A stretch of DNA of 64,000 nucleotides. It comes from Leptasterias polaris. Taxonomy: Eukaryota; Echinodermata; Asteroidea; Forcipulatida; Asteriidae. Positions within the stretch are counted from its first letter, which is position 1; each line of letters begins with the position of its first letter. Under the pieces are notes generated by a model. The model ran no database searches. It was given only the letters and a program-made list of their open reading frames with translations, and was not told the origin of the DNA. Of this stretch, positions 1,010 to 55,565 are shown one piece after another. The position numbers and the translations under genes are program-made. The stretch covers positions 6,950,501 to 7,014,500 of the forward strand of contig JAZGTN010000046.1 of the NCBI GenBank assembly GCA_037783415.1. The letters are read 5' to 3'.

Positions 1010-1160
1010 ATGATGTTGGAGTTGGTGAGATGGGCCGTGTTTGCTGGAGTTATTGGCATCGTCAGTGCACACGTTCGGCTGTCATTTCCCCCAGCGAGAA
1101 CGTACGCCTTTGATTTCCTTGACAATCTCAGAACTGAAGGTCCCTGTGGTATGCCGTCAT
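1010..1160 (+). CDS. DOMON gene exon 1: signal peptide and mature N-terminal His
   Basis: Codes residues 1-50 plus one base. Two ATGs are adjacent (1010, 1013) and the first is used here. Residues 1-20 form a hydrophobic signal peptide ending Val-Ser-Ala, so the likely mature start is His21-Val-Arg-Leu, followed by a Pro-Pro-Ala-Arg motif and a Gly-Pro-Cys46-Gly motif. A His exposed by signal peptidase is required for copper binding in LPMO and X325-type proteins. The exon ends at a consensus GTAAGT donor (1161) in phase 1. Confidence 0.85.
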
Positions 1161-4100
1161 GTAAGTACAATCATTGTGTTGGCCTACACGTTACATTTGC
1201 CAATCGATTTTCTTGAAGATTTCACATGTCTGTTGGTGTTAAAATTTTAATTCATCTCATGACGATTAATTTTACCACAACAAGTTTGCGACATTTACTT
1301 CCAAGTTTGTGTTTGACGTTTATTCTGCTGTTTCCAAACATTTCCCAGACCATGCTCAGACCATAGAGCAAGGAACTGATATCATCTGGTCCCATACTAA
1401 GTTATAATTATTTTAATAGATACTGAGGTGATAAGATTGCGTACACATGGTTTTTCTATGATTGGAAATGAGGTGCTAGCAAGATTAAAAAAGAATAAAA
1501 ACACTTAAATTAAATTATTGCATGTATAAACTTGAATTAAAAAATTTATGATTACAATTGGTATGCTTAATATATATGACTGTCTTTCTAATGTACAAAG
1601 TTTTGTAAATTAAAGAAGAATGTTTTTTAATTGAATTGAATTAAGTAGTTGTATTGGCAATGTCATTGCAATTGTGTTATTCATAACAATTCAAATATCA
1701 ATGCTTATAGAAAGTTTTCTTACTAAGGATATGTACACAACATTGGTATGCCAGGTTAAAGGTTGAACAAATAAATGACACTGGACAGATTTGCACAGAG
1801 CTTAAACAACCTATAGAGATGACCATAGTGGACAACTTTTCCAGATGTATTTTTGCCTGAAATGCTATTTTTTCATTTACAAATGAGTAGGCCTACATTA
1901 GTTAGAAAAAAGAACATCATTACCATTGTCATGCAAAGGAAATCCAGAAAAACTTTTCAAAAAGTAAAAATATTCATTTTGGATTTAAATGAATAGATGG
2001 CACTTCTCTATGTGGTAATCAATTGTGGCATGTGATATCAAATTCATTCTATTAGGAGAGAGGGATATACTTTGTTCTAAAGATAAGCATTGACAAAATC
2101 ATAGTCATTTAGTTTTGTAGACTGTTGCAAAATCCTCCAATCCATTGATACAATTGTGTGAAGAAACATAAGTTATGGGTAAATCGATGACAGCACAATG
2201 CTTTGGTCTGAGAATGTACTTATTAATGATGGGAACCACCCTGAGTGGCCTGTGATCCCTTCATACTCACAGTAAGCTCATTAAGTAGCACCTGACTAAA
2301 GGGCAATATAAGTCTGTAGGCCCTATATGTTGTGATGAGTATGAGTACAACCTAAACAGCAGAATAATTTGCATCAAACAGAGCTGTTGCTCATCAAACC
2401 AAGAAGCTGATGAGACTATAGTAACACAGGCCTATTTGATATAGATGAATGCAGGGCCCGATTTCATGGCTCCGCTCACTGCTGAATTCTGCACTTATGA
2501 TCACCATTCTCTGCTTACAGGGCAAGCGCGGAATTTCTGCGCTAGCTGTGTAAGCAAAAGGTCTGTATCAAGCTATTATGAATCAAACTGGGCCAACTAT
2601 GTACACAAGTACCTCCACTGAGTCCACTGGTACCTGTGTAGCAAATGACCCTGCAGGAAACAATTAAGTACCTCTTGCAGATTACTACTGAAAACAACAA
2701 CAGCACACTCAGTTCTGTTTATTATCAGGGATAAGACATAACAGTAAAACAGGATATTTAATACTATAGGTGACAACGGCTATGTTGTAGTTTTAGCATT
2801 AGGGGCCTATTTAAAACATGTTCACAGGTAACTAAACGCAACAAACTAAATTCGGCCAAAGCTGCATTGCAATTTTTCTCTATGAGACGCACTGCCTAAG
2901 TATCCTAAGCTGAACACTGAAGGATGGGTGTGTCAATGTTTGTCAACGGCTATTGTTAGAGACTTGAGTATGGAAGGTTTGGATCATCTGACCATAAAGC
3001 ATTGGAGTTTTGTCATGTCATCAGGTGAGACCCTAGGACTGAAGAACCCTTTTATAGTCTGACATGACCTGTCAGTGAGTCTACTATTAAACCTTGATGT
3101 TGTTGCTCTTATTGTAAAAACTTAGAATAAAGGTACTCATAATATAATGGGTATGGATAGCAATTACCTTCAATACACACGTTACTTCATGTTTATATTC
3201 TCAGCAAAGGTTTTTCTTTTCCTACATGTATAAAGCAAATTGTATGATGTAGCAGGTACACTGGCTCAACTGATTATGCTCCAGTGATTTGCCTAATTTT
3301 AAAACTTTTTCTTATATGAAAATGCCTTTTCACAGCAATAGATATAGATTCAATGAAGTGATTCTGAACATTGTTACCATAATGTGCCCCTTTGAATTAA
3401 AAAGCCATGATTTTTTTTCCCACTGCTCAATGTTATGCTTAAAGTCCAGGATGGCAATGCAAGCTTCCTTTGAGTCTCTTTCTTAATTTTTATCTCAGTT
3501 GTTCTGAAGACGTCTAACCAATTGGTCAAAAAGTTCAAATGTATTACTGTATATCTGTACAGCTGGCTGCATCTTACATCTTAAAGTTGTTTTCTGACTT
3601 GATGTTTTTGAGCCTGTCACATCTGAATGATGTCACAATGATGAGAATAGGCCTAGTGTTAAAAGGCAGAGACTAATTGTTGTCCTGAAAGACCTACAAT
3701 AGCAGGAAAATTCATCCAGATGCTCATTGGCATAAGACCTCATATCATGCAAGGTTTCATGTTTTGTGTTCCTTCCTAATTGCCTCTAAATACAAATCCA
3801 CCACTGTGTATGAACACAATTTTTATGACAGCCTTTATAAATGCTCAATTACTTTGTAAATTTTGTTCAGGGATAGTTTTAACAAAAGAGCTTTTAATGG
3901 ATTTCATAAGCAAAAATAATTGTTGTGCTTGCATTATAAATTATTAGGTCTAAGAGTAATTGGCTGCATGTACTATTTAATAACAAAATACATGGGCCCT
4001 GTGGATGTTAGCACTTTTCAGGTGTAACCCTTACCATTTGATCAATGTTGGTGGTACATGGTGGAGGACAACTTCCATATTAAAAGCAAAACTCAACCTT

Positions 4101-7100
4101 ATTAAAAAAAGTGAACATCAACCTTTTCCTATGACTGTAATAAGATTAAATCCATTTGTGAAATTTTGAATAGCTGTTATTGTAGTTTCAGAAACCTTTT
4201 AGTACGTAAACCTAAGATCTTTAAATCTTGTTGCCCAGACAATGATGCTGAAAAATAATTGGCTGAACAGTAAAACCTGTAACAAAGAACAGCCCAGTCT
4301 AAACAGGATGTCATTCCTCATTATTTTCTCACAATTATTTTCTGCTAACTGAATGATGAAAACACTATAGTTTGCTGAACTTCAAATGAATAATTGAGCC
4401 GTGAATCCATTCAATTTTAATGAAGGGTATATGTTACCATGGAAACTAGAAAACCTGATCACAATGCAGCGTCAGTTAGTTTTTTCCTCTCAGTCCAAAG
4501 GTTGGTTTGCATGATGCGAGAATTCAATTTGAGAATAATATACAGTTTGAATGTCTATTTTTGATATTTTAGTGAAGAAACCATTTTTATTTATGTAGAA
4601 CACAATCAGCCAATGCTTTGTGTTTCTAATACTGCACTCCTCATGTCGATGGTGAATATCAAATTAATGATGCTGTATGATTGCACTATGCATTTTTCTT
4701 TATGTTTTTGAAGTCAGACTGGATCATTAGGCCCAGCCATGCAGTTCAAACTCATTTATGAGTCTGTTCATATTAGCCATTCCATTTTGTGATATTAAAA
4801 CATGGGTTTATCCAAATTAAATATCAACGCGACACTCCCGCATGCAATATCTTAAATCACATAATGGTGAGTTTCTGGATGGAATGGCTAATATGAACAG
4901 ACTCAAAATGGCACCATTAATGGCATTAATGGTGCCATTTTGAGTGCCACGCCACGTTGGACAACACCACTTATGGACAACGTAGTCCTACGATAATTAA
5001 CATAAAGATTGTTACTATAGTAGCACTGCGGGTATTGTAGGAATGGATGTTTGAAGTTAGTGTAAAACGGGTTGAAACAAGCAGGTAATACATTATTCAT
5101 ATATTTATACATAAATTTTCCTAAGGTAAGATGATAAAGGTCAGTGAATTTTAACAGTTTTAAATCTGCAAATAGAGGCCCTGAGTGCTCACAATAGCCA
5201 GTTTTAGATATCTCGAACTGCACGTTTCTGGAGAGTAAGCAGTTTGTTACATTTAGGAGTTGGACTACCCCAGGTTAAAAGTGAGTAATTTAAATATGGT
5301 AAAACAAAAGAGATACAAGGTTAGCAAAAAGCTACTTGGTAAAAAATATTTTAGACGGTTCATTATACCAATATTTGTTGATATTTTGGCTGTTATAACG
5401 GCAATATGTTTCTTCCAGGTTAAATTCTCATCAATATGTATTCCCCAAAATTTAGTACACTTAACCTGATCAAGATTTGTATCATTTAAAATTAAAGGAA
5501 CAGACTGAGCGTACTTGTACTGGCTAGCACAAAATATCATATAGTTAGATTTGAGAACATTTATACCAGTTTATTGGCTAAAAGCCAAGTAGTGATTTTC
5601 CGGAGCTCAAGATTAAGTTTCTGCGCTGCTAAGTCTACAGTTTAATCAGTAAACAATAAACTTGTGTCATCTGCTAACAAGTCTGTTTCAATTTTAATTT
5701 TTCTGTCAATCTTGTCTCTATCTCATATAAACATTAAGAGTTAACAAATGACCATGCAATTTTGTTTAGATACTTTGGTTTATTGTTACCTTTTATACAA
5801 AAAACCTCAGAGAACAGCTAGAATGTACTTGATAAAAGCTGAGATGAAAAATAGCATATATTTACCTTTCCCATGCATCTCATACAAAGTTATCAGTTGT
5901 GCCCATTGTGTGGACAGACCCATATAATATATGAAACATCACTATGACTGCAGCATTGTAAGTGTTGATAATATGGAGACAAATTTTGCTAGTTTCAGTC
6001 TAAATAAAGTATTGTTAAATAATAATTATAATAATGAGCACTTGTAAAGCGCAGGTATCTGTCAGGCATGACTCTCGTGGCACATTAAACAATAAAAACA
6101 ATAGGTACATGTAAATGTAGGGAATGTAGGTGTTTTAAAAACTTCCTTTGCAAAACTGAAGTCAATGTGAGATGTTACTTGATTTTCAAACCAAACATAT
6201 ACATTTTTTATCCAAAGGAAATTTTAAATAGGACAATGGTGTGCTCTCCTCCACCCTGTCATTTTAGTCATTTGTCAAGATTTTTTCCCTTTGGCCATAT
6301 CATCACCGTTTTCACAAAGTGATGAATCACAAAACTGGGCATCAGTTTGTGTATTAATTCTTGACATAATGCTGTTCAAATTTTCAGCAAGTGGCAGCAC
6401 CTAACAACTTTATCAAATGATACATGTTGTGCTGTCACTGTGTAAAATAGGTGTGGTATGACTTTTGCATTATACACAAACTGACAAATCTGTTAACCTA
6501 CATGTGTATTTAAGTTCAGCGTTTTCACAAAGCGAATATGCATTGGTTTGTACACAGCGTTCTGCATGCATGTAGTTTTTGACATTTTTTGTTTAGGTAT
6601 TAACAACTCATCAAAACAATTGCAAGATTAAAAACATATTGACAGTTCTGAATGAATGAAGAAGTCAGCTTTTTTGGTAGTAAAACTTACAAGAAAATAC
6701 ATTGAGCAGTCTCCGAAACAGCAGTTTGAAAAATAGTTTAAACTTAAAACAAGATTTTCATCAAACACAAAGGTTTGGCTGTGGTGCAGATATGTCACTT
6801 CTGAAAATGGTGACAATAAAATGCATGGTTCCTAAATGAAAAAGTAAATCACATTTAGTACTAAAAGATGCAGAGGAACTGAAGAACAAAGACAAGTAAA
6901 TGGAGAAAACCAAACCAATCAAAGTATGTTGTTCAAAAGATACAATCTCTCTTTGAGAGTCCATCCTGAGCAAACCTCATATCCTATTTATTTCTCAAGG
7001 ATAATATATTCCAGTGTCAATCAAAACGCCTAGTATTCATTCCTTCTGACGCGTTCAGAATCATGAACACAGTTGTCATAGAAACTCTTTCATTCAATGC

Positions 7101-10100
7101 CACCGTTCCTTCAATTTTTTCTTTTCATATTTCATTGATCAAAGGATACAACTGTAGGTAGTCTGTCTTTCTGTGAGTCACATTTTCAATTACATGTACT
7201 TATCAAGGTAAAAATGGTAGCCTTGAATTTTCCTAATGATCCAGGAGGGAATATAGTCACGGATTGTTGTCACTAATTAGATTTCTGTGTTGAACAGTGA
7301 AGGGGGAGTATTTTGAAACTTACAATGTGAAACAAATTTGGAATAAAATTATATGTCCTAACCAACTTTATTGTCAAGGCTGAATCTCAGATAAATATTT
7401 TTTTAATGAAGGAGCGAATATTCATAACAATGCAATAGGTGCAGACATGTTTGAATGATGAGCCTCATTGGGAACTGTTAAATCTTTTAAAAAGTGCTTA
7501 ATTTGCATCACTTGCATTAGGTTTCCATCATCCACATGTCTTCAAAATCCAAAAGCACTAGTTTGCAGATTGTCTACTTCATTGTATGTTTGTTTCATAG
7601 GTTAAAAAAGGGACTTTATGTGCCAGCAAAACAGCCTGATAATATTTCAGAACTAGTAATAAAAAGGAATAATTGATTCAATTTTTTGTGAAGCTGTTTT
7701 ATCTAAACTTGCTACTCATTCATGATATCATGATACTAAACATAGATAAATTGGACACACACATTAGTTATACATTTTCTGGTATATTTCACCATACAGA
7801 CGGAAAAATGCATCCTTGTGGAGCACTCTTTTGTTCTTTCCTTTGTCCCTGCACTTAACAGTTTCCCATAGACTTTGTACACAAATTTCCTTGTGGAGCA
7901 CCCCGGTCTTTAGAAATTCCATGTGGAGTCCTTTTGTTTTCCCTTTTTTGTTTTGTCCTTGGTCTCCAGAAGGTACCGAAAGTGAGAGCATAGTCACACA
8001 TCATGGCCATTGAAACAACAGTTCACTTTGGCTTCTTCACATCTTGAAAGTTTGCCCATTTTGAACAATAAAGCATTTTTTCACTTCTTAATTGTTAATC
8101 AAATTTGTAAATTAAAAGAAAAACAATGTTGAAATCTTCTTCTTTGAAAACACAAATTGAGGTCATGCATAAATCCCATTGCAAAGTGTTTTCAGTACAT
8201 ACATGTAGGCCACTAAATCCACAATGATTTGGACAGTTTCAACACATTCAAATTTAGTTGCAATTGAAAGTTGAAAATTATTTTCATCTAGATCCCTACT
8301 GTGATTGAGAGACTCTTGAAAATGAATGTCCTTGGTTACAGATCAAGCTGAAAAAACCTCCTGGTGTGTTTTTGCTTGACAAAATAAATCAGCAATGTAT
8401 TGTTATTATTGTTATGGTCATGCTGCACAAATCCTCCTTGTTGCACTGTTTCTATGGTGGAAGGCTGGGATTCCTGTCAAGTACATAAAATTATCAATAG
8501 GCCTACGAGCAGGGTCAATTTTCCTTGTCGTAAAGAATAGTTAATCTGTTCAGATAGAGATATTTGTCTGCATAATAAAATTAATAAGGAATCAATGATT
8601 CCGTTGGCAAACAAATATGTTAAAATATTGAAGCTATGCAGACAAGAATACATTTAAAGATTTTATAAGTTTGTACAATTACTTCTACACAATTCATTAC
8701 TATAAAAAATTTACTATCCAACCCTCCAAAAATCCTCCTTCAAAAAATATCCCAACAAAACAAACAAACAAAAACAATGGGGAAAAGAAATAAAAACAGC
8801 AATTTATGTAAAGTTGAAGTTACAAAACATTGTTGGAAGTGTACAAACATTGTGTTTTTAAAATAAAACAAAAAATCCTTGAACAAGCAGGTGAACATTT
8901 TCAAAACAATTCCTCTTAAAAAATTGTGAAGATGATGTCAATTTTTTTTAATTTTTTGTCTTATCTGTCATTGTAAATATGAACAACGAACATCAGGTAC
9001 CAACCTTTTGGGAGAAAATGAATCAGAGTTGTATGAAATATGATAAGTCCTTTGGGCACTAATTACTAAACAACAAAGCAGACAAGCTTTATAAGTTGAC
9101 TGGCAGACCATAGTCTGTTATAACTTGTGATAATTGTAAACTCATCTATGTTTAATCATAGAGTTAGATCCCTTCTACAATTCAAAACTTCCCAGAGCCT
9201 TTGGTAGGCTTTGTGATACATGTTGCTGCTTCCCTGATTAACTTCCTGTATTTTTTTCTCTCCAAGAAATGTGATTATAGATGAACCATTTATATGTTAT
9301 GCTGCAAATTATACAAATGACAGGTCAATCTTTAACAAACATAATGTGTACAACACTGTGTCACATTTTAAATTGGTTTGGAAATTGGACCACACTGTGA
9401 ATGCCATACTGGAATCTTATCATTATGAACAATGGAGAGGGTGTTAAGTCTACAAGACTGTTGAAAGAAGGATTTCATGTGGAAGTTTTAGAAGTCTGAG
9501 AAGGGTTGGCAAAGAAAGACAAATACAATCATCCACTGATGTTTCACTTCCTTAAAAATTATGTTTGGAAAGAATTCCCAAATATAAGTGGTTGTATGCA
9601 TTCATTGTTATCAATAACAATTATAAATGTAGATTATTTACATCTTGGCGTGTCATCATGGCGTGTCTTGGTCGAGCGGATAAGAACACCGGACTCGGGC
9701 TCTGGTGTTTCTAATCAGCAGGGTGTGGGTTTGAGTCCTGGTCATGACACTTGCGTCCTTAAGCATGACACTTAACTCTGTATTACTATTAACCATTATT
9801 TCTGCGTCCTTCGGATGGGGCGTAAAGCATGTGTTGTGTATAGTAATGCACGTAAAAGAACCCAGTGCACTTATCGTAAAAAGAGGTTCCTTGTCAGATC
9901 GGCAGCACCTTGTAAACCATTACATGGTGCTATAAAAGAAAAAGGTCTCATACTTCAAAAACATAGCTCCACATACCTTGCAGGAAAAATACTGAGTGCT
10001 TTGATACTTTCCTAGGGGTGTGATAAAGCGCTATATAAGGACCTATTACAGGCACGGTTCTAGAGCCACGATTTTCGGGGGGCTAGACCTTTTGCACGTG

Positions 10101-13100
10101 ACATCACCCTCTAACTTTCGCTACTGCTATTTCATTTTGGGAGTCGAAAAGCAACATATATACAGCGATTTTTTTCATGTATTTGGCGCGTAATAAATAG
10201 AAAGATACAATATTCAAACAACACATGACGCAGTTGCGTGCAAATTATTTTTAGTTGACTCCAAAACGGTGGACAGAACAAAAACTTGCAGTGGTGAAAC
10301 GACTTTGATTGAGAATATTATGGGATAGGCATATAATTACATTGTTTGGAAAAGCTCATGTCTACTTGATTAGTGAAATGCGGCGTCCTTTTCGGGAAAA
10401 CTCATCGACAACTGTGTTGGGATGTTGGAGGTGTCATGTCGCGTTCGATTGCGAGGCCACATAGATGGGTCAGTCGGCTGTTGCTCAGCACGTAGTTAAT
10501 ATGTTTTCACTCTTTTCATCGTTGAAAAACTTCTCTCTGCGGTTGCTGATGTAACAGGGATGGTACAGACCAGTTGGAAGAAGCGGAGGAGGTCAGGGAA
10601 TGCGGATTTCAATTTAAACAACCGTTCCATGGTTTCCTCCGTTGAACCCGGTGCATCTGTTAAAAACATTTGATGTGCCACAGCTTCCTGATGCTCCAGG
10701 TTATTGGGGTCTATGTTAAAAACATTTGATGTGCCACAGCTTCCTGATGCTCCATGTTATTGGGGGTCTATGTTAAAAACATTTGATGTGCCACAGCTAC
10801 CTGATGCTCCAGGTTATTGGGGTCTATGTTAAAAACATTTGATGTGCCACAGCTTCCTGATGCTCCAGGTTATTGGGGTCTATGTTAAAAACATTTGATG
10901 TGCCACAGCTTCCTGATGCTCCAGGTTATTGGGGTCTATGTTAAAAACATTTGATGTGCCACAGCTTCCTGATGCTCCAGGTTATTGGGGTCTATGTTAA
11001 AAACATTTGATGTGCCACAGCTTCCTGATGCTCCAGGTTATTGGGGTCTATGTTAAAAACATTTGATGTGCCACAGCTACCTGATGCTCCAGGTTATTGG
11101 GGTCTATGTTAATATTGGAAAACTTTGCAATCATAGGTGCCATGTCAGCAAGTCGGAGAAAGCGATCTGATTCTGGATTAGCTGGGTCGCATGCAATTAA
11201 TACAGGCCTGGATAACATCGTTGTTCTGAACAAATTGCCGGTGAAGTCCAATTTCGTCTGTTTTCTTGGATTAGCAATTTGGTCTGGTGTGAAGTACTGA
11301 CTTTATCGTACACGCCAGCATCAGCTTCATTTCCAAACTGAGATTGGTTTTTATGTTCATGTAATACAAAACAAAACGAGGCCGAAGCGCGCGCCGGCGG
11401 AAACTGCAAATTCTAAGCACCGCGCTTGTCTAACGTGAAACATTTAACGTACATGTAAAAAGACCGTGCAAATCTATTCATTTTAATTTTTAATGAAGAT
11501 CCAATATTTTCCAGCATGTATCTTCAAGCTTCTTCTTTTTTTCCCTTGCATTTTGGGGGGGGGGGGGCTAGACAAAAGTTTGGGGGGGCTAAAGCCCCCC
11601 TAGCAACCCCTCCCCCCTCGTAGAACCGCGCCCGACCTATTATTTTTATTATTATTAATATTATTATTAATATTATTATCTTGTTTTTGTTGGATGCTGC
11701 TGATACTCTTACTTGAATTAACTATTGTTTTGTCTTTTACAAAAAGCACTGTGGGCAAGGCATAGATCTTTGTTGAAATGTCAGGGGATGATTTAAACAT
11801 TTTCCTTAATTTTTTTATTTGTTGATCAAATTTCAATATAATTACTGAGAGAAAAACTTCACTCTTTAAAGTAGGAAATTTAAAGGCACTGGACACTTTT
11901 GGTAATTACTCAAAATAATTGTTAGCATAAAAACTTACTTGGTAACGAGCAATGGAGGGCTGTTGATAGTATAAAACGTTGTGAGAAACGGCTCCCTCTG
12001 AATTGAAGTAACGTAGTTTTTGAGAAAGAGGTAATTTCTCACTCAAATAATAAAAGACTTCTTGCTGAAGCCTTTTATTATGCATCTGAAAGCACACAAA
12101 GTAATGCAACAAGGGTGTTTTTTCTTTCATTATTCTCTTGCAAATTCGATGACCAATTGAGCCCAAATTTTCACAGTTTTGTTATTTTATGCATAGGCTA
12201 TGTTGGGATACACCAAGTGAGAATACTGGTCTTCGACAATTACCAAACGTGCCCAGTGCCTTTAAATGAAAGTAATCAAGTTAGCAAATATTTAGTAGAT
12301 TAAACAGTTTTATCAAAAATTCAAACTCACTTGAAAGATCATTTAGCCCCATACAAACAGGTAATTTTTCGCTTGGTAGCACTGGTTTATTTTTGCTTTA
12401 AACAAACATCCTGAACAAAAGTACTGTATAACTGATTAATTCCTCATCAGTGATCGCAGGAAACATTCAAGGACTTTAACTTGAAAAGCAAGAAAAGGGC
12501 AACTTTATGTCAACACTAATGTTGATTTTATGGAAATTAAGAGTGTCGTGTATTGTGATACTGCTTATAAAACCATGGGGGTGGTGGTATGGCTGAATAG
12601 CTGAATGGTAGATTGATCAAGCAAACTGCCTAGAGAAAAATGACTATTGATGGTTCAGCATGCAGTGAAAAAAAACTGTATCAAATTTATGGTAATCTAT
12701 TTGTTAAAACTATATAGTAATGTTGAATTACTCCACCCCCATCCCCTTTGTCTCCTTATTCTTTGTTTACCCCCTTGCTTTTGGAATGCTTTCTGCTTCT
12801 CTCTCTCTCTCTCTATTCATGTATTTCCTCTTGACTGCTTCTTTTACACTTGAATACCTGTTTCGTATGTTGTGATGTCATTTAGCCTTCCAGAAAGGCT
12901 CTGCTAGGGTCGAAACCTCAAGTCATTAACTATCTTTTGCGTAATGTTTAATTCAGAGAGTTTTGTATGTGTAATTATGAGTTGGATTCAAAGTGTGGGT
13001 TCATTCTGGTACCCTACTTTTATTCAAAACTGTGTTTGTTGCCTTGAAATAAATGAAGTCACTGTATTCACTTCAGCTAATTCTGTCCAAAAACACACTC

Positions 13101-16100
13101 CCTTAATTGTCAGATGTTAAAGAATAGATGCCTTGCAGTTGGTCATTGCTCGTAAATATTGCATTCTTAATCATTGAGCACAAGACTTGAGCATTATTTA
13201 GCACCATATCCATAGAAGATGTATAATATTTAAAGCTGGCCTTTGAGTACTTTAATCAGTTAGATATTCATATTAATATATAGTATCGTTTTCTTATTTA
13301 TCTTTGTTTCTAGCTCCTGGAGGTCCAGTGACTACCTTATCACCAGGGGAGACTATCAATGTGACATGGCATCTAGCATATGCACATAGGGTAAGCTTTT
13401 GTGTAATGTGTGCAGGGGGCGACTTTGTGAGGGGCGACTTTGACAGGGGGCGACTTTGTAAGTGAGGGGGCGACTTTGTGGTGGGCGACTTTGCTGGGGG
13501 GCGACTTTGTAGTGGGCGACTTTGCTGGGGGGCGAGTTGACTGGTTTCCATAGAGAGGGCCACAATGGCTCAGCCTATAGCTCCTTCAAAAATGCTTTTC
13601 TTTGGAATGATCTCATGAAAGGTTATGCATACACACAAGGCCACATATGTACATGTTTGTAGACACCTCCTTAGCCCTATAGTGTTCTGAAGGCCCTATA
13701 GTGTTCTGTAAGCCATAGGCTCAAATCCTATAGCAGTTAAGAGCTAGATTCTATACATGTACTTAATTACTTAAAACTGAATTAAAAAACCTATGAGGAT
13801 CCAACAGCAAGCACACATTCTACTAATTGCACTCACTGGCACTGACTAATACTTAATAGTGTTCTTCAAATCAATACAAGTGCATGTAGGCCTACATGTA
13901 CAACTATACATATCACCACTTATTGATTTCTGTCCAAACCTCCCTAGTAGTGACTTCTCTCATGTACATACTTGTAAAATACTCTGCATTACTACTCAGA
14001 ACTATTTTCTCACAGTGTAAAATGGGCTTCACTTTTTCTATGCCTGACTTAACGACAAAGTACAAATAATATTTTGTCTAGTTTAAACAAATTAAGTTAG
14101 TCTCAATGAGAAAGTTTGTACCATAGAAATTTGTCCATCTAAAAATTTTTTAGAAATTGCCTTTTTTGATGGTTGCTGATGTGACAATAATTGACACAGG
14201 TTGGTTGGATGCTGTGTCCTTTAAAACCCAACGTTTTGGGGTACCAATATTCATATCCACCCCATCCAAAATATATTATCATATTGAACTTTTTTTTTCA
14301 TTTCCAAATGATTTTGTTTACATCCAAGTGACTTCTTATGTCTAGCTATTGTCTAGGATTGAGTCCTTTACTTGCCAAACTGACCACAAACGACTGCTTT
14401 CACTCTTCAGTAAGCCTAGATAAACACACACATGAGACTTTATGTGCTTATAGTGCATGAGAAATAGTTTTCCACCCCTAAACAAAAAATAAAAAAAATA
14501 TATTCTGGGACCTGACCCCCCTCTCAGTTATGTGGAATGGTCCAGTCTGGGATCAAGGTAATTACACTTTGGAAAAATGGATTAATTAGTCATTAGAGGA
14601 TTGACTTAATGGTACCCTGTCTCAGAGGAGGATTACAAATAATTCTGTGTTCACCATCAAAAAATAGAAATAAAAGAAAAATTTAAACATACAAAGTTTA
14701 GAAACAAACAGAAATTTTTATTTTAACTAGAATATTTAGCTTAAGGCAGGGTATACTTTTGGTAATTGTCAAAGACCAGTATCCTCACTTAGTGTTTCCC
14801 AAGATATGCATATAATAACAAACCTGTGAAAATTTGGGCGCAATTAGTCATCGAAGTTGCAAGAAATGTTAAAAGAAAACAAATTACCCTTGCTGCAAAG
14901 AATTGTGTGTTATAATGCCCGGCCTGAAGCCTTTCTCATATTAATTTTTGTTTTTGTGTGAAAAATTACCTCTTTCTCCAAAACTTCAAAGGGTATTCTT
15001 GCTAACAATGTTTTATAATATCAACAGCTCTTCCGTGCTCTTCACCAAGTAGGTTTTTATGGTCATTAATGTTTGGAGTAATTACCATACTCTCCCTAAA
15101 ATAACTAATATGCTAATTAAACATTTACTCAAAAGTAAACAAATGAAACTGATGGGATATGAGAGCATAACAAATATCAGCCACTCTGAATCATTCTTAA
15201 CGACCACTTCCAACCTTGTATTTTTCAAACTACAACTATGAATAAATAATGTGCATTGAGTTATGAAGCCTTCTATGTATACAGCTAGTGACCTCCATCA
15301 GTGTCACTCAGACACAGGTGTAACAGGCCTACTCTTAGATTTATTTCATTTTATTATTTTTAATTAACACATGCAACAATTAACACATACAACAAAAATG
15401 TAAAAATGTAAATGTTTCATCTAATTAATGGTGTCAACTAAAAAACACCAACACACACACACAAAACGGCATGCCACTTTCCACTTTCTAGATCATGTCA
15501 ATATGTCCATGGAACTAGTTCTCTGTAAATTAAAGTACACTGGATACAAACTTTCATGAATTGCCATCTCAGCTCACAATTTTCTTTTAAATTTCTCAAA
15601 AACCTGAAAATGCCAACTGAACTAATTGGGTAATGTTCATGAAAACATTCTCCAATGTTCACAGAACACTTTCAGATTGATAACAAATTATAAAGTTAAG
15701 AGATATCATTAAAATTTAATTTGTTTATCAATTTCTTTTGGTGTGTATTTAACACTTAACGATCAGATAATACTGTAACTTTGGAGACAGGTCAATTTTG
15801 TCCAACATTATCTATATTTTAATATGAATTATTTTAAAAGAAACTCTTTACTAATTCTAGTGATTCCTTGTTTTGATCAATTATTTCATTGGCTAAAAAT
15901 TGCTGTCCATTCCTGATGACTCTGCAGATACTCTGCCACAAGCTCACTGAAGATTGATATTTTTTAAAGGTCACACTGAGGTAAAAAAAAAAAAATCAAT
16001 TTGTAGCATTCCAGTGAATTGTAAAGATGCATTGCACTCCATTCATGGGGGTTGATAATAGTTTATTGAGGAGTATTGTAGCAGTAAAGGCCAAACTTTG

Positions 16101-19100
16101 TACAGTTATTGAATTGAATTCATGCTAGATTAGGTTATACACCAGCCAAGATGTAATTATACACAGATTCGAATAAAGCAAGCAGACAACTTATAATTTG
16201 ATTGATTGTCATAGCCTCTGAAAACTGTTTTTTATTGCCAAACAAAAAATTGTGGAGGATGCCGAAAAACGTATTGGCAATCCATTCCCCACACTTAAAA
16301 AGAGCTTGGGATACACCTGACCCCCACCATTTTTGGGCTTACAACCCACCCATCAAATTTGGCCCACATGGCTTCTTTTATTTGTACACGTGACCACAAC
16401 CATTACTGGGCACCATGCCCAAAGTAATTAATTGGCAAACAAGTGCCAAACCACAAATTGGCACACCTGGCATCTTTTAATTGGCTCACCTGGCATCTTT
16501 TAATTGGCTCACCTGGCATCTTTTAATTGGCTCACCTGGCATCTTTTAATTGGCTTACCTGGCATCTTTTAATTGGCTCACCTGGCATCTTTTAATTGGC
16601 TCACCTGGCATCTTTTAATTGGCTTACCTGGCATCTTTTAATTGGCTCACCTGGCATCTTTTAATTGGCTCACCTGGCATCTTTTAATTGGCTCACCTGG
16701 CATCTTTTAATTGGCTCACCTGGCATCTTTTAATTGGCTCACCTGGCATCTTTTAATTGGCTCACCTGGCATCTTTTAATTGGCTCACCTGGCATCTTTT
16801 AATTGGCTCACCTGGCATCTTTTAATTGGCACACCTGGCATCTTTTAATTGGCTCACCTGGCATCTTTTAATTGGCTCACCTGGCATCTTTTAATTGGCT
16901 CACCTGGCATCTTTTAATTGGCTTACCTGGCATCTTTTAATTGGCTCACCTGGCATCTTTTAATTGGCTCACCTGGCATCTTTTAATTGGCTCACCTGGC
17001 ATCTTTTAATTGGCTCACCTGGCATCTTTTAATTGGCTCACCTGGCATCTTTTAATTGGCTCACCTGGCATCTTTTAAATTGGCTCACCTGGCATCTTTT
17101 AATTGGCTCACCTGGCATCTTTTAATTGGCTCACCTGGCACAACCAATAATGGGCACCACGCCCATAATAATTAAACCACAACTTTTGGCACACCTGGCA
17201 TCTTTTAAAATGGCCCAACTGGCATCTTTTAACATTGGGTACACCAAGCATTCTTGGGCACCACGCCCAAATTATTTAATTGGCACCTGGCCAAACATTT
17301 ATCTGTGTACACACCTGAATCAAACCACGTGGGTACACAGGCGGAATGCAATGAAACAATTCTTCAAAATAATCATACCTGAACATTATACAATTGTATT
17401 TAACCCTCAATCAATTAAGTTGTGAAGTTCCACCTTGGCACATGCGGTCGGAATTAGCCCCTGTGGTACATCAGAGCGCTAACACAACTTATTGTTACAA
17501 TATATGATCTTAACTAAAAAGGTGTGTAAGCTTATTGAACAAAGAGGTGTTCAAAGTTGAATAACTAGTTGGAGCAAAGTACATTTACTTGCAAATATAA
17601 CCCCAAAACTCAAAAAACTGTGTGAATCCCGTAAACACGCCAAACGCGCCAGGCGCGTCCCACAGGGAGAGCACTTTTTTTTTTTTTTTTTTAATAACAC
17701 GGACAAAATGCAAGAACGCAAATTGCCACAAAACAATTGTGTGCCCAACAGCGACAAATGCACGCCATCAAAACGATACAGGGACGTTTCAGACCAAGCA
17801 AATTGGGGATGATGCAAGCAGTGGGCGCCCAACCTAGCACATTGTGATTTTGCCCAACGATTAATTGCTCGCCGTTTCCGTTCAACAGCGGGTTGAGACT
17901 TTGCCCCAAAGTAAAACACTCGCGGGAGAATATCCGACCACACAACCTTAGATGACGGAAACTGAGAGATATAATCTTGCAATGCAATGGAAATACGCTG
18001 TTGCATGCAAAATTCATCAACGTCAATGAGATCGTTGGTGCCAATGTGAAAAACTATAACTGCCGGAGTTGACCCGCTACATGATCGCAACAAAGCTTCC
18101 AAATCGCCCATATTTGCCCCACTTTTCCCCTTCCAGACCACTTGACAAGGAAGATCAATTGAACCTGCTGCCCAACGGACGATGGAGTCGCCAATAATCC
18201 AAACAGGACCTATTGATAATTAGTCACAGAAATTGAGGGAATTGGTATACTAATACGCATAGATATGGCAGGTCTCCCGGTATTTGAAGCCATTGCAGCT
18301 CTAAAAATTCTATCTATTTAAGCATCTAGTGAACTAGGGATAGGTCTGGCAACGGCGTCATGATTGCATCTGCATGAGGAGCCGCTGCGCGGAAGCGGGT
18401 TTCCTGAAAACGGGACAGAGAATCAGCAATTACATTAAAAAACCCTGGCACATGCGTAGCCTTAAAACGAATATTAAACCTCAGACAGGCAAGCACCAAC
18501 GTGCGGATGAGATTCATCATTTGGGGACAATGGGAAGATTGCTTGTTGATAATGTGCACCCCCGCCGCATTAATTGTCACTGTGGAACAGTACCTTGCGA
18601 TTAGCAAGCTGGGGGCCCAACACTTGAGTGCAACAATAATAGGAAACAATTCCAAGAACGCAATTGACGGTGGATAAAAAGAGATATATTCACTGCTCAA
18701 ATCGTCTGGTCAATTTCATAAACTTTTGCATTTTATGCTTGTTTGATTTCTTGTAATTGGGAAAAAATTAGTCTTTTATATGCAAAACTTAGATTAGGTT
18801 TGATGGGATTTGTATAATTGGGCTGATTGAGACACTGGCTATACTCACGTCTAACCTGTTGACATTTGAATGGCCTCTGTTATGTATTATTAAGTGTTTT
18901 TTGCTGCTCATTTTTGTCTATATCATATATTTAGTGTTTTCTTCTGGGCATAATAAGTTCAAGAGAGTTTTATTATTTTCTTTTTGAAGGAATATTTTAA
19001 GAATTGAATGAGTACCATCCATGCCCTAAGTTTATTGCAAATGACCTTTTGTTTAGAATAAGAATAGGAGGATGTTTGAATTAATAAGGAGTTTTATGGC

Positions 19101-22100
19101 ACATTTTAAACATGGCCTGCTGCATAAACTCAGTCTGTAACAAGTCAAACAGGCAGCCCATATGTAGCCATGATGAATACTTGATGTATTTTGTTGTTTT
19201 TAGGGTGGATACAAGTTGTTCATTATCCCTCGTAATGGCACTGAGGTCCTGGCTAATTTAACAACCCCGGAAGGTTGGATTGGAGGTAACGATACAACGT
19301 AAGTATTTATACATCTACAAAGTATTCAAGCATTCAGTTCAGTCGTAGTCTGTATTATCACCTACATGTATGCATACAATGCTCTACATTCTTTGCTACA
19401 ATTTCAAATTAAAGGGAAGGTGTACGTTTGGTAATCACTATTTTTTATAGGGCCATTATGCATGAAGTAAATAATTTCAGTAATGTGGTTATGGAAAAAG
19501 ATATCAGTTTTTATCCCCCAAAATTTGAATCTGAGAATTAGTTACTGTCAGATATGTTTCTCAGATTGTGTATTCCAATTACAGATTATTTTTCCTGCGT
19601 GGACATACATGTAATCGCTCCGGATTTTCAGCAATATCACAAAAGCGCTACCAACTTTTGAAATAAAACTTCCATAGGTTATAGTTTTATTGTATATATC
19701 TACATTTATATAGGATTAAAACAATCGAACAGTTCCAAACACCAAAGGTACACATTCCCTCACATCACCTGCGCATACAATGCTCTGCAACTTAACTTTC
19801 TTGCTACAATTTCAAATTAAGAAACACAATGTTCATGTTTTCTTGTTTGACTTTCATTGGTTTCTGACCTAATCTTATAGAGCCATTATGCATGAAGTAC
19901 AGATACCTAGTGATATGATGGAGGGTGATTACAGCTTAGTCTTAAATCGTCTTGCTGCTGAATGGGTCACTGGTAACCCTGACCTTCCATATACATTCCA
20001 TAGCTGTGCTGATATCACAATCACTGGTAAGCTCATATTAGTCAAACAGTCATAACTATTATAGTTATTGATATACTTGGGATAAATGTTCCTGATGCAA
20101 ACAGTTAGTCTACTTCGCTCATACATTACCTGTTGAGCGAATTACTACTTCTGCATATTTCCTAGACTGGCAGGTATAAACGCTAAGAGTTTGCCAATAG
20201 CGCCCTCCAGAGGCGGCCCCATATAGGCCGCGCATGCGTGCCCCGTGAACGTCCTCTTTTCTCTTAGCGTTGGTAGCGGTAAGACGTGTCTATTGGAGTC
20301 TCCATTTTTACACTTAACTTACCTGTGTTTTCGCAAGAGAGCTTATAAAGAATAAAGAACAAGATTTTGTGATTGTAGAGTGTTTTGTGGATTTTGTATC
20401 TTGAGTGATTTGATCAGAGTAGAATGAAACGTTTGGCGAGAGCTCCCGCTGTCGGATCTGAGGGAATTTGTACCCCCTCCGGGGTTGATGCGGGAAACGC
20501 TGCGCCATTACCCAATTCTTCCCCCAGCCAGCGCTCACAGCCACAGGCGGCTGCGGGCACTGCCAGTCCCACCGATCGGGCAGGGGAGTACCAGGTACGG
20601 TCTCCCCCCCCCCCCCCCCCCCCCCCCGGCCGTCGTCGGTGGGCTAGCTAAACACAAGGGTAGTTCCAGCAAGAGTCGCAAGGTGGACTCCGTTGCCAGG
20701 ACCAAGCCCAAGAAGGGGCGCGGAAGTATAAGAAGCCAGGGTCCGTTGTCACCGACCCGCACGCTTTACCCGCCCCGCCCCCGAGCTCGGGGCCGTCTTG
20801 TGTGACGAGCCCACACAGCTCGGCGGGCCGTAAGAACCCACGCCCCCCAAGCTCACTGGCAGTGTACGCCACAGAGTCACGGGGTGGGCAGGCGTACGGG
20901 CCCCTGGGCTCTATAGCCGACCTCCGCCCCTTGGGGTTCGAGGCGCTGTCGCCCGGGCAGGGGTTGAGGGGACTGATATGGAACAGTCTGTCCGGGGGGC
21001 CCCCGGACTGCTGGCCTACCCCCGGACTGCTGGCCTACCCCCGGACTGCTGGCCTACCCCCGGACTGCTGGCCTACCCCCGCTCTGAAGGACCGACCACC
21101 GCATCAGATTTTACCCGGTGTTCGGGGGTCCCGGTCCCCCAGGAGTCGTCTGATTTTTTATCGGAGTCCTCCCGGGGCCACTCGAGGCATAAGAAGGGCA
21201 AGTCTGGCCGGCGTTCTCGTCGATCACCCTCCTCGTCCTCCTCGAGCAGCTCTTCGGACCGCCGGGGAAAGCGTCACCATGGTGACAGTGTTTCCCGGAC
21301 CGAGTTCTTGCAGGCTTTTCAAACCATTTCGGCCTCACTATCGGCTCTCTCTGCCCCCCGGCAGATGGCCGTGGTGGACGGCCCAGTGCCACCGCTTACG
21401 TACGCTGCTCAACCTTCTGTTATCGTTCACGGTTGGGTGGCGCGAGTACAAAGGGACGCACCACACACAGTCAGTCGTGCGCCGCCGTCCCCACCAGCCC
21501 TCACAGCCTGCATCCTTCGATGTCTCTGTTGCCTGAGGATACGGTCCAGCCACCGGGCCGTGACATAGCGCTGTCTGCCCCACCTCGTGGGCCGGCCAGC
21601 TCACGATCACCGGGTTCGACTCGACCCACCCCTTCGGAGGACTCGGCCTCAGAAGATGAGGAGGTCGTGCAAATGCAACGCCTTTCCATCACGGAAACGG
21701 AGCTGCGTTTGGTTCAACGTAACATGTGTCGAATACTTCAACTACCCCTCGTGGAGTCAGTGCCGAAGCCTGAACACAGATCTTTCAAGCGGCGCACTGG
21801 GCCGGTGGCGAGCTCGGAGAAAATTTGTTCCCTTCTCCCGCTGGACCAGGTGTGCGTTGAGCACATGGAGAAAATCATGAAGGCAGACAAGTGGTCCGCC
21901 GTCACCCGCCGATCCAAGGACTATTACCAGTTCCCGCCGGCGGATTATGAAAATGTTTTCGCCGTGCCTACTGTCCCCGTTGCGGCCAATGACAAGCTCG
22001 CCGCCGATGCTGGCGCCACAGCAACAGGGAAACGCATCTTCTCGGACAAATTCCGAGAGAAATTCGAGGAGACGTTGCGGAAGTCCGACACCGCCTCCCG

Positions 22101-25100
22101 CTTCGGCATGCGCTCCACCTCTTTCCTTCTACTCCTTGCGTAGTATTTGGTCTCGGGGGTTGGACGATGACGGAGCAGTCCCAGCTGACATGCTGCAAGC
22201 CGCCTTCCACTGCTTGGACTAGGGGTTGCGTGTGGTCCTCGACCAGTTCGCACGCATCTCCGCCCTGATGACCTCGGCCCGCCATGGGAATGTGTTGGAC
22301 ACGTTGTTCCTGCCCTCCCCTGCAGCACGTAAACGTTTTGAAGATCTACCACTTGCCAGCATGGATCTCTTTGCAGGCCAGTTCGAGGTGTTGATGCAGG
22401 ACGAGGCCAAGCGGCTGAAAACGACAGAGAAAATTAATCTCAAGAAGCCCACAGCTGCAAAGTCCCCTTCTCAGCCCAAGAAGACGGCGTTCACCATTCC
22501 CCGGCGCAGACCGGTGAAGACAAACGGAGGGAGTTTTCGTGACCGTGCCGACAACTCGTCGGGTGCGCGGCCCGCCCAGCCCCAACCATTCTCCGGCCAG
22601 CAACGACAGCAGGCCGGCCGCGGTTTCCGCGCGCCTGCCCCCGCTATCCCGGGGGTTGGTGCAAGTGACTCTGCAGACTGGTGGCGGCCTCCCACTCTCG
22701 GACCCGTGGGGGGCCGTCTTCAAGTTTTCATCGGGTCCTGGGCTCACGTCACGTCCAACCGGTGGGTGCTCGAGACTAGATCGCGGCTATGCGATCAAGT
22801 TCACGAACACCCCCCTGTCGGACATGGTGGTTCGACCTACACCGGTCCCGACCGACTCGGCTCAACGCGCGTCACTCGAGGGGGAGATCTCCTCCCTCCT
22901 CGAAAAGGGCGCAATACGGGTTCTTCCCGCTCAGCGGGTGCAGTCGGGATTCATGTCGACGTTCTTCTTGGTCCCCAAGAAGGACGCCGGCGTGTGGCGT
23001 CCAATACTCAACCTCAAGCCGTTGAACAAATTCATTCGCCCCAGACGTTTCCGGATGGAGACACTCAAGACCATTCTCGAGTCCCTCCATCCAACCGGGA
23101 GCATGGGCGGCCAGCCTCGATCTGAAGGACGCATACCTGCATGTCCCCGTCAGCCAAGAGCACTGGAAGTTTCTGCGGTTCCAATACGATGGGACACGCT
23201 ACGAATTCACAGTGCTCCCCTTCGGCGTCTCGACCTCCCCTCGGGTATTCACCCGGGTGGTTCGAGCGGTTGGGGCTGCGCTGCGGAAGCAAGGGGTCTC
23301 GGTTTTCATGTACCTCGACGACTGGCTCGTGGTGGGCCGATTGCGACACACTTGGCGCCTGGCAGCTGACCTTGGATTTTTGATCAATCTTGAGAAGTCG
23401 CACCCGCTGCTGACTCAGTCCCTAACCTTCCTAGGCGCGGCCCTCTCTTGGTCCGGGCCAACCTGATGGGGGGGCAAGGCCTTTCGCAGGCCCCGCCCAT
23501 CCCTGACGGTCACGACGGACGCATCCCTTTCCGCTTGGAGGGCCATCCTCTACCCCCGTAGAGGACGTTGATATGGAACAAACCACCAGCTTCCCCCCTA
23601 TTGCACGAGGGGTCACGACCCCAACGCATGGCGGACGGATGCCTTGTCGTTCCGGTAGGACAGGCTATTAGCGTATGCATTTCCCCCGTTCTCGCTGGTC
23701 CCACGGGTTCTCACAAAGCTGGAGGAGGAGGACCTAGGAGGAGGACTGCAAGGTCCTCTTCATCGCCCCATTTTGGCCTCGTCAACCGTGGTTTACGCTG
23801 CTGACCAGGCTGCTGGTTCACCGCCCGGTGGTCCTGCCCCGACAGGCGGATGTCCTCCTCCAACTGGGGTCGGGTTTTCTTCATCCAGCTCCTCAGGATC
23901 TCCACCTGACGTGCTGGGTGTTGTCACACAATCCCTCCGCTCGGCAGGCCTTTCTGAGCGAGCTGCGTCGATTGCAGCCCGTAGCCGAAGGGCCTCCACA
24001 CGGCGGGTATATGGCAGCCGACTACGCCACTTTTTTAGATGGTGCAGACGGCGGTCTGTTCATCCCCCCGATTCTTCTCTAGGGGACGTTGCCGACTTCC
24101 TTGTGTCCCTGTTCGAGAGCGAGCTCTCGATCGGCACTGTAAAAATTTATTGGTCGGCAATTGGAGCGGTCCATAGGGGATTCCCTGATGGCACCTCCGT
24201 GTCGGACAACCCGGCCCTCAGCCAACTCCTGAAGGGCATGTTTGTCTCTCGACCCCCTACGCGTCGACTGATTCCGGCTTGGGACCTCCCTAGCGTACTC
24301 TCTACGCTAGCGGAGCCTCCTTTTGAGCCGATGGGCAGCTCGACTTTGCTCTACCTGTCCTGCTGGCAGTCGCTACTTCACGTCAACGTAGTGAACTCCA
24401 TGCGTTGTCAACCGAGGCGGGCCACATCAGGTGGGAATCTGACGGGGTTCGCCTCATCCCACTGGGTTCCTAATGAAGAACACCAGTCCGAGTCGTTTGT
24501 TCCCCCGGACATCTTTGTCCCAGACATTAATTAAGTCACGGTCATCTATCCCGGAGGATCATTTTTGGTGCCCGGTCCGGGCCCTTAAATGGTATATCAG
24601 TCGTACGGAGACACTACATACGGCTCGTTTTTTCCCACCTATTTATCACCTCGACCCCACCTCACGGGCCGGCGTCGCGGGATACGGTTAGCTGTTGGCT
24701 GCTTTCGGCGATCCGCTCGGACACTAACGTCTCGCCGGATGCGCCTATTCGAGCCCACGAGGTTCGAGCCGCGGCCACATCGTGGGCGTTTTTTCGGGGC
24801 ATATCTTTGGGAGACATCACCCAAGCTGCCTGTTGGAAGACGCCGAATACTTTTACTGACTGTTACCTGCGGGATGTACTCCAGTCAGAGGGCAGAGCTG
24901 GAAGGGCAGTCCTGACATCGGCTAGCCGGGCTTTTACCAAACGGTACGTCCCGACCAAGCCGGGATCTTCCCGTCATAGTGTGACGCGCACGCCCGTAAC
25001 TGTGGGTCTGCGTCGCGCTTGATTTGGGCTAATGACGGCGCCCGTGGGCGCCGCTCCAGGCCCTGGGGGGTTTTCGCGTTGGCGTGCCCCTCTTTTAATG

Positions 25101-28100
25101 GCTGCATCTCGTAGACCCTCCACCATCATCCGGTGCGATTCTATGCAGAAGTAGTAATTCGCTCTACAGGTAATATATGAGCGAAGTAGACTCCCCCCCA
25201 CAGAAGTGTGGGTGGGGTCTACGAGTGAATACTTACCTGTAGAGCGTCCCGCCCTCCTTCCCCACTATCCTCGATGACTCTGGGTGCCTGTATCCTTATA
25301 TGGCACTCGAGAAAAGAGGACGTTCACGGGGCACGCATGCGCGGCCTATATGGGGCCGCCTCTGGAGGGCGCTATTGGCAAACTCTTAGCGTTTATACCT
25401 GCCAGTCTAGGATATATGCAGAAGTAGTAATTCGCTCAACAGGTAAGTATTCACTCGTAGACCCCACCCACACTTCTGTGGGGGGGATTTTGAAATAAAA
25501 ACATGCTTTGTATTATAAAGAAAAGTGAGAAATCTAGTTTTAAAAACCCACAAAAAAACAAACAAACAAACAACCCAACAAACGAACAACCAAAATCTTT
25601 TTTTAAAATGATAAAGTAGAAACAGTTATCAAGAAACTCTTGAAATCGTGAAAGGAACAGTGTGCACATAAAAACAAAACTTTTAATTTGAAATATCAAG
25701 TATTAAACCAGCAGGGAAAGTAACTGGGTAAAATTTAAATAGTTTGGGGTTGAACAAAGACAAATTTAGCGGGATTGAACCAACCTCCCTATTTTGACAA
25801 AATAGGGAGACCCTCAACATATGGCTTAATAGCTCAATTGGTAGAGCACCGGCATGTTAATCCAGAGGTCTTTGGTTCAATCCCGCTCTTGTCAATTTTT
25901 CTTTTAAATATTTTAATATGATTTAATTTGAAGTGACATATACATTCCAATTAATAAAGAACATGCACCATGGTCTGCTTTCATGGATGATGCTGATCCT
26001 GATGCATCATGGGAAGGATTTCTAGATATCCTTGAGGCGGCAACCCATGACAGCATACCTAGAAAACAACGGCGACGCACTAAATGTTCTCCATGGATCA
26101 CACCTGAACTAAAGAAACTAATTAACCTGAAGCATAAACTGTTTATTAAAGCCAAGCACTCTGGTACCAGTTCAGCATGGCTCCAGTATAAGCAGGTCCG
26201 TAATAAGGTGAAATATACAACTAAAACATCCTACTGGAACTATGTCAATTGTCTATTTACAACTAGAGACAACAAGCGCAGTTTTTGGTGTTTCGTCAGA
26301 GATCAACGTAAATCAAAGTGTCCAACAGCATTCCAATATGCTGATGAACTGCTCCAGAAACCTAACGATATTGCCCGAGCATTCAACGAGTTCTTCACCT
26401 CGGTCCACTCTCCAGCAGAAACTTGTCCAGCTACACCGCCACCCTGCACACGTCATATTCCCGAAGTTCCTCCTATTCAAATTGAGCTTGGATGGCTGAC
26501 AAAGTCTCTACACAATCTGACCCCTCACAAGGCACCCGGCCCTGACGGAATTTCACCAACCTTTCTACGATCCACAGCCTCTTCCATCGCACCGCCATTA
26601 TTACGCTTGATGAACTCGTCACTTGTTCGTGGTACCCTGCCTGTGGACTGGAAGTTATCTAATGTCACACCCGTTTTCAAATCGTCCAAACGAAACGACA
26701 TCAACAATTATCGGCCGATTGCCCTAACTTCCATTGTCTGCAAAGTGTTGGAAAGGGCAGTCGCTGACAGCATCAATGAACATGTGTCCTCCTGTTGCCT
26801 TGGCAACGAAGTCCAGCACGGCTTCACAGTGCGCAAATCGTGTGTCACCCAGCTATCTAATGCCATTTTTGACTGGGCTTCAATCATGGACAAGCCGCGC
26901 CCACCTCGCATCGACATCGCCTTCTTGGACTTTAGAAAAGCATTTGACATCATGCCCCATCACACGCTACTCAATAAGCTCGCAAGGAACTTCAACATAC
27001 AGGGTCAGACCTGGACATGGTTAAAATCATTTCTTACCGGACGGCATCAGCGAGTAATGTACCAGGGAGCTTTTTCATCTTGGTCCCCTGTTACATCTGG
27101 CGTCCCCCAAGGAAGTGTCCTAGGCCCTCTATTGTTTAACTTGTTCATCAGTGACATTTCAGAAACCTTAGCCACCAAATCTCTACTCTTCGCTGACGAT
27201 ACGCTCATCTATCAACCCATCAGTTCCCGTGAAGATGAACTCCTCCTGCAAGCAGACCTTGATGCCCTCGGCCGGTGGAGTGAGTCCAATGGGATGAAAC
27301 TGAACACAAACAAATCTAAGATAATGCATATGACTAGATCAACAAAGACACTAGCCCTTCCACAGTACTCCATTCATGGATTCCCCTTAACCATAGCAAC
27401 CACCTACAAGTACCTTGGCGTCACAATGAACAGCACTTTAACATGGAACGACCATGTAAACACTGTGGTTACCAAGGCAAATAGGACACTCGGTTTCATC
27501 TGGCACACCGCAGGAGGAACTTCTACAAAAGCACTGATGTCGCTATACCGGACACTTGTCGTACCAGTTCTCGAGTACGGGTTGCCTGCCTGGTGTCCAT
27601 ACACAGCAGCTTTGTCATCAAAACTAGAACGGGTCCAAAGGAGAGCCACAAGAATGTTTCTGAAACAACAGAAAGGAGCTATGTCGTATGAGGAGAGACT
27701 ACAAAAACTGAACTGGCAAAGCCTAGAATCTAGACGGCAAAGACTAGTCATTCAATTCACCACCAAATGTTTATTCGGTTTAATTGACTGTCGCACAATA
27801 AACTCTAATACCTTTGTTAATACCCGGCACTTAGACACACTTACCTTTAATCATCGGTATGCTAGAACTCTTGGCCTAAAGAACACATCTATCCATTCAT
27901 TTCCACGTATTTGGAGTAGTCTGCCTACAAATGTTAAGAATTCTCTCATCATTGATTCGTTTAAGTGTTTTAATGTTTACTTATGCAACCATTTCCAAGA
28001 TGTCTAGATTTTCATATACTCGAAGTTGCCATTTCTTGCCCTTATTGATTGATTGATGGCTGCATCGATTGTTTGTCAGTGCATTACCCGTTTGGTTGTC

Positions 28101-55432: not shown

Positions 55433-55565
55433 CTAGAGTCTTGGTGTCAATGACAAATATTCTCCACCTTGTCAAATTGCAGCAATGGTTCCAATTTGGG
55501 GCAACTTTTTGACATCAGTAACTCATGATGTGAAACAGCAGCACTAGGCCAATATGTTGACTTCT

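Follow-up and report, generated by a model that had tools for sequence, protein, structure and literature searches.

A nahoda ortholog in the Leptasterias window

The window analyzed here is a 64-kb stretch of Leptasterias polaris DNA (contig JAZGTN010000046.1). It carries a single plus-strand gene (1010–49861) with 17 exons, encoding a 735-residue protein with an N-terminal domain that resembles the lytic polysaccharide monooxygenases (LPMOs), two epidermal growth factor (EGF) modules, two DOMON domains and a hydrophobic C terminus. Its identification as the echinoderm ortholog of nahoda, an uncharacterized insect gene, is well supported by sequence comparison. All introns are GT–AG, and every phase is consistent in the spliced translation of the 17-exon model. 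The first four exons join in frame to give MMLELVRWAVFAGVIGIVSA^HVRL...FHSCADITIT, where ^ marks the presumed cleavage; the positions of His21, Cys46, His70, His75, Cys150 and Asp152 are as the initial annotation had them. Beyond these exons, the gene model was completed with echinoderm orthologs as guides. When the Patiria protein was compared with the window's own genome, all 15 matches among the best candidates scored lay inside the window, so no paralog was found there. The exons are as follows.

Exon 1, 1010–1160 (+): putative signal peptide (residues 1–20, ...GIVSA), then the first part of the LPMO-like domain; GT donor
Exon 1 residues (+), spliced translation: His21, predicted mature His1 (codon 1070–1072); Cys46 (codon 1145–1147)
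Exon 2, 13314–13390 (+): ...NVTWHLAYAHR, with His70 (13370–13372), Tyr73 and His75 (13385–13387), the putative second brace His
Exon 3, 19204–19298 (+): middle of the LPMO-like domain; splicing and Patiria ortholog match
Exon 4, 19881–20026 (+): end of the LPMO-like domain; Glu135-Trp136 (19960–19965), putative axial Phe147 (19996–19998)
Exon 4 residues (+), spliced translation: Cys150 (20005–20007); Asp152 (20011–20013)
Exon 5, 29383–29484 (+): EGF module 1; EGF-type matches in the Patiria ortholog, splicing
Exon 6, 31140–31268 (+): EGF module 2; EGF-type matches in the Patiria ortholog, splicing
Exon 7, 31788–31891 (+): DOMON1, first part; ortholog-guided, splicing
Exon 8, 41232–41304 (+): DOMON1 (...SWLAFGWRPQ); ortholog-guided, splicing
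Exon 9, 42321–42421 (+): end of the first DOMON1 part and start of the acidic linker; ortholog-guided, splicing
Exon 10, 42926–43094 (+): inserted linker with polybasic RRRR (residues 329–332) and Pro-Glu repeats
Exon 11, 43863–43886 (+): 24-base linker micro-exon, placed by phase and splice sites without direct homology support
Exon 12, 45308–45508 (+): DOMON1, second part; Met396 (HAMDC), candidate heme ligand; Pfam DOMON 3.7e-10
Exon 13, 46439–46645 (+): end of DOMON1; His486 (YVH) and His510 (KYHG), candidate heme ligands
Exon 14, 47033–47229 (+): DOMON2, first half; Met592 (GQMIGSD), predicted heme ligand; Pfam DOMON 3.8e-28
Exon 15, 47702–47896 (+): DOMON2; Pfam and splicing
Exon 16, 48322–48472 (+): end of DOMON2; His688 (YHERTP), predicted heme ligand
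Exon 17, 49776–49861 (+): hydrophobic C terminus without cytoplasmic tail, GPI-anchor-like by hydropathy; stop codon 49859–49861

The N-terminal domain has an LPMO-like fold beginning at His21

The mature chain is predicted to start with HVRLSFPPAR..., the signal peptide (ending VSA) being cut between Ala20 and His21. In both predicted models the closest fold was AA15 (TdAA15A, 5msz), followed by AA10 and AA16-like folds; X325 ranked lower and was outscored by AA15 by 2.0 and 2.9 Z. The modelled sponge protein (P0005) consists of the LPMO-like domain only. The AA15 matches were at 20–25% identity, with 5msz aligned from its residue 1, and in all 50 fold-alignment rows the first model residue aligned was 21 or 22. 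The models thus support an LPMO-superfamily fold that begins at the mature His21, as had been anticipated. The initial annotation had left the choice between LPMO and X325 types open, and the LPMO type is the closer match.

The domain profile matched the AA15 structure at E 3.5e-5, and the window domain scored 22.3 against Pfam LPMO_10, just below the cut-off of 23. The gathering score of the X325/BIM1 model PF20238 (27 bits) was not reached by the window (19.8) or by Patiria (25.2); the same model is listed in the source labels of relatives P0007, P0080, P0173, P0185 and P0193. NF043005 (SCE4755 family), an NCBI bacterial model described as polysaccharide monooxygenase-like, is similar over nearly the whole domain and matched all five echinoderm domains, that of the window among them. 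Of 15 proteins, 13 were matched at all, and the best score (49.8 bits, 3.5e-13, from a sponge) stayed below the curated cut-off of 75 bits. Because this model has 146 positions, it has no room for EGF or DOMON modules. Two contig pattern scans for bacterial relatives with gene context returned 12 and 27 matches, none a relative by tblastn. An NF043005 search of the window's own genome gave no match, nor did 14 controls, so that this search is uninformative.

Conservation was assessed in an alignment of 80 of the 97 non-redundant sequences; a second alignment held 28 hand-picked members of 66 domain sequences. Gapped rows were left out of the per-column counts, which, we stress, are conditional on the proteins being homology matches, and the full-length search favors proteins with DOMON domains. 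In the 80-row alignment, His1 was present in 75/75 rows and the second His in 80/80, with Phe in the axial position in 77/78. The equivalents of Cys46 and Cys150 were each found in 78/78, in keeping with the pair picked out earlier. Glu135 and Trp136 equivalents were retained in 78 and 76 of 80 rows, Tyr73 was Tyr in 73/80, and the His70 position was His in 67/80. Among a wider set of 112 relatives, the axial position was Phe in 110/111 and a His1 motif was found in 105, the preceding residue always being Gly, Ala, Ser, Cys or Thr. Since the His1 motif follows a small residue in 105/112 and the second His is present in all 80 aligned rows, the His-brace pattern is beyond chance. The motif was missing from P0217, P0219, P0224, P0225, P0226, P0229 and P0232; because six of these have an early second His and the seventh begins after it, most look like gene models that start inside the domain. 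The second-His pattern was absent from P0204 and P0232, and the axial pattern from P0232. A Cys precedes the R-x-A-x-E-W strand in 75/80 rows, often as C-x-x-C, and is missing from the five echinoderm rows.

The copper site reported for TdAA15A comprises the ligands His1 and His91, with Tyr184 in the axial position and Ala89 near the copper (Sabbadin et al., 2018; PMC5823890). Profile alignment pairs His75 with His91, Phe147 with Tyr184, Tyr73 (two residues before His75) with Ala89, His70 with His86 and Asp152 with Asp189. Because His21, His75 and Phe147 align with this copper site, the ligand set was reset to these residues: the alignments support a brace in which His21 would contribute its amino group and side chain, His75 would be the second His and Phe147 would occupy the axial place. 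Of the two histidines named earlier as ligands, His75 was retained; His70 was rejected as the second brace His, as the ligands named for TdAA15A are His1 and His91.

EGF, DOMON, linker, and C-terminal regions

DOMON domains certainly lie downstream of the LPMO-like domain: PF03351 matched two pieces of the window (3.8e-28 and 3.7e-10). The initial annotation recognized both and made no mention of the two EGF modules. Pfam found two to three DOMON stretches in all four orthologs examined and EGF-type matches in three, the Holothuria protein being without; nine further members, from Drosophila willistoni to green algae, had DOMON in 9/9 and EGF-type matches in 7/9. DOMON1 is split by an acidic Pro/Glu linker. 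Its candidate heme ligands are conserved (Met396 equivalent in 62/63, His486 in 52/57, His510 in 61/63), as are those of DOMON2 (Met592 is Met in 54/55, His688 is His in 53/53). The fold together with conserved Met and His is that of heme b DOMONs of the cellobiose dehydrogenase (CDH) cytochrome/CYBDOM type, the heme itself being predicted. We infer that DOMON2 binds b-type heme through Met and His, and DOMON1 probably does so as well. DOMON2 alone gave only chance-level rows against PDB by sequence (E 1.1), and a full-length echinoderm profile put low-complexity and EGF matches at the top, ahead of DBH (E 0.024) and 5msz (E 0.22). DOMON1 lay outside the regions covered by the fold rows listed for the predicted model.

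Among the 112 relatives, the linker could be delimited in 105, and 85 of these have an R-x-[KR]-R site within it; because this site is common, furin-type processing is possible. The RRRR of the window linker (42926–43094) may be a conserved furin-type cut that leaves two chains.

The chain had been proposed to be held at the cell surface, and a hydrophobic C-terminal anchor is supported by hydropathy, from residue 714 of 735. The same tail-less end, which would suit a chain held on the outer membrane face by a glycosylphosphatidylinositol (GPI)-like anchor, is seen in the Patiria and Trichoplax proteins and in other deuterostomes; the Antedon end fell below threshold. By hydropathy, most arthropod rows have one transmembrane (TM) segment and a cytoplasmic tail. 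A tail motif near PDFYFMPSQRKYSGEVVRVYVDY is common to many arthropod members (among P0125–P0232), which suggests an intracellular partner or a sorting signal. Bryopsis P0228 and the metagenome protein P0230 end in cytochrome b561 (30.2 and 28.7 against a cut-off of 23 bits), and their LPMO-like domains match NF043005 at 36.9 and 33.6 bits. These two proteins carry LPMO-like, DOMON and b561 regions on one chain, and they group in the domain tree (98/93).

Relatives and distribution

Orthologs in Patiria, Strongylocentrotus, Antedon and Holothuria were recovered when the N-terminal domain served as query; each of the four has DOMON. A domain-only profile gave 277 matches (E ≤ 1; range ∼80–270 amino acids); the named proteins among the best 120 of these also include sponge, arthropod, nematode, mollusc, annelid and tunicate members. 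A full-length profile matched 129 proteins at E ≤ 0.001 among 7,991 candidates scored. Several of the best 120 of these 129 carry the source name nahoda, and others come from Saccoglossus, Branchiostoma, Ciona, Trichoplax, Patella, Bryopsis and Pyramimonas (the last by partial label). Insects and molluscs share the layout, as do a placozoan and some green algae.

In an unrooted domain tree of 33 relatives and the window, the window groups with Patiria (100/99), then with the urchin (100/97), then with sea cucumbers (98/85). The deeper forks are mostly weak: of the 31 inner branches, 11 have good support. The placement of Antedon outside the group formed by the window, Patiria, the urchin and the sea cucumbers is unsupported.

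Other elements in the window

Two further elements lie in intron 4. A GC-rich element at 20200–25200 (GC 0.595 in 20001–24000), which we take to be perhaps DIRS-like, contains a frame with a phage-integrase-like SAM match below cut-off (4e-5); a reverse-transcriptase-looking frame beside it had no Pfam match. A reverse transcriptase frame follows at 25932–28007 (RVT_1, 3.8e-34), and a similar-looking frame in intron 7 (35701–36510, minus strand) had no Pfam match. Four high-identity tandem arrays were found at 10658–11112, 16456–17140, 54969–55434 and 61114–61800, with units of 56, 23, 67 and 47 bases, respectively; the first two sit in introns 1 and 2 of the nahoda ortholog. A CDC20/fizzy-family WD40 gene is the opposite-strand neighbor, with an exon at 62049–62303 (minus strand, 3.8e-36).

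Discussion

Like the window protein, insect nahoda has an LPMO-like N terminus with His1, EGF modules, a split DOMON1 and DOMON2; it differs in that most arthropod rows have a TM segment and cytoplasmic tail where the window has a GPI-like tail, and in a weak SEA match found in the protein of Drosophila willistoni. The passages on nahoda found in the open-access literature (gene lists, an expressed sequence tag count and a positive-selection list) name no LPMO-like function. An open-access search combining LPMO with DOMON, histidine brace, AA8, b561, X325 or echinoderm surfaced no functional paper, which does not prove absence. The LPMO branch of Voshol et al. is probably the nahoda-type family. 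The window domain differs from AA15 in being ∼60 residues shorter, in having Tyr in the place of Ala89 and in its appended EGF and DOMON modules. Characterized AA15 enzymes are reported to act on cellulose and chitin (PMC7924993).

We consider it probable that the nahoda ortholog combines a His-brace copper domain, EGF modules, heme DOMONs and a GPI-like tail in a single chain with an intramolecular electron relay to copper. The gene, its orthology, the fold and the conserved residues are well supported; copper and heme occupancy, electron transfer and GPI anchoring are what we infer. That one chain might carry both a copper site and its electron donor was already proposed in the initial annotation, and the conserved brace residues and DOMON Met/His are consistent with it. 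In such a relay, the DOMON hemes would be reduced by a reductant outside the cell or by a cytochrome b561 present as a separate membrane protein, and would in turn reduce Cu(II) in the tethered His-brace; the reduced copper would activate O2 or H2O2 against a cell-surface or matrix polysaccharide. In members with b561, electrons could pass all the way from cytosol to copper domain. Fungal CDH and AA12 enzymes are described as using a DOMON-type (AA8) cytochrome to pass electrons to LPMOs that are separate proteins (PMC8981238), and a plant DOMON and b561 protein is reported to export ascorbate electrons and to reduce Fe(III) and Cu(II) (PMC10784544). The acceptor of the CDH and pyranose dehydrogenase cytochromes (AA8) and of CYBDOM is a separate LPMO or metal ions, whereas in the window the candidate acceptor lies on the same chain.

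The same modules could serve copper capture. The His-brace would then bind Cu(II), the heme DOMONs would reduce it and Cu(I) would be passed to an importer such as Ctr1, with no oxygenase involved, as proposed for fungal Bim1. The X325/Bim1 proteins (PF20238), described from fungi (PMC10952591), resemble the window protein in their His-brace, LPMO-like fold and surface anchoring. However, they have an Asp ligand, reported to sit on a Gly-rich loop (PMC7529816), whose counterpart was not identified in the window domain at the sequence level. Together with the better fold match to AA15 and the retention of the LPMO axial aromatic, this makes copper capture unlikely. That the copper would act as in an LPMO and not be handed to an importer is favored by the fold ranking and the axial Phe, neither of which is a functional test. 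The version of the initial annotation would be an X325-type site with Asp152 as third ligand. X325 is among the fold matches, and the position is Asp in 104 of 111 relatives in the wider set, but the Cys-Ala-Asp motif is also present in AA15 and AA13 structures, and Asp189, with which Asp152 aligns, is outside the reported His1/His91/Tyr184 site (PMC5823890). In the 80-row alignment, Asp was found in 68/78 rows and another residue in 10/78, algal rows included. We regard such a site as very improbable and Asp152 as an unlikely ligand.

It could also be argued that the chain serves adhesion at the cell surface, being redox-dead or binding sugars, with EGF modules and DOMONs that bind matrix and an LPMO-like module that keeps its His residues for structure. 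The EGF modules and acidic linkers would suit such a protein, and some DOMONs are reported to bind sugars (PMC10691727, PMC10784544). Yet both brace His residues, the axial Phe, the Glu and Trp, and the DOMON2 Met and His are nearly invariant from animals to algae, and the His directly follows a small residue in all 105 motif proteins, which adhesion alone does not need. Such an adhesion role is improbable.

For the relay, an ancient origin can be proposed tentatively, with more doubt than confidence: a one-piece surface relay (ascorbate, b561, DOMON hemes, LPMO-like copper) would have existed before animals and would remain whole in some green algae, and animals would have kept the heme and copper part, anchored by GPI or TM, as nahoda. 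Since the domain tree has no root and its deep forks are weak, the gene may instead have been transferred between algae and animals. If this ancient relay is correct, animals as far apart as placozoans, insects and sea stars would possess a self-powered enzyme of the LPMO class, one that oxidizes a matrix polysaccharide and has been overlooked under the label "DOMON protein."

LPMOs require an electron donor, which in the fungal systems described is a separate enzyme. A natural one-chain protein present across animals and some algae would offer a defined system for heme-to-copper electron transfer. It would also suggest that the biology of the animal extracellular matrix includes an oxidative step so far unrecognized, and Drosophila nahoda makes the question open to direct genetic test.

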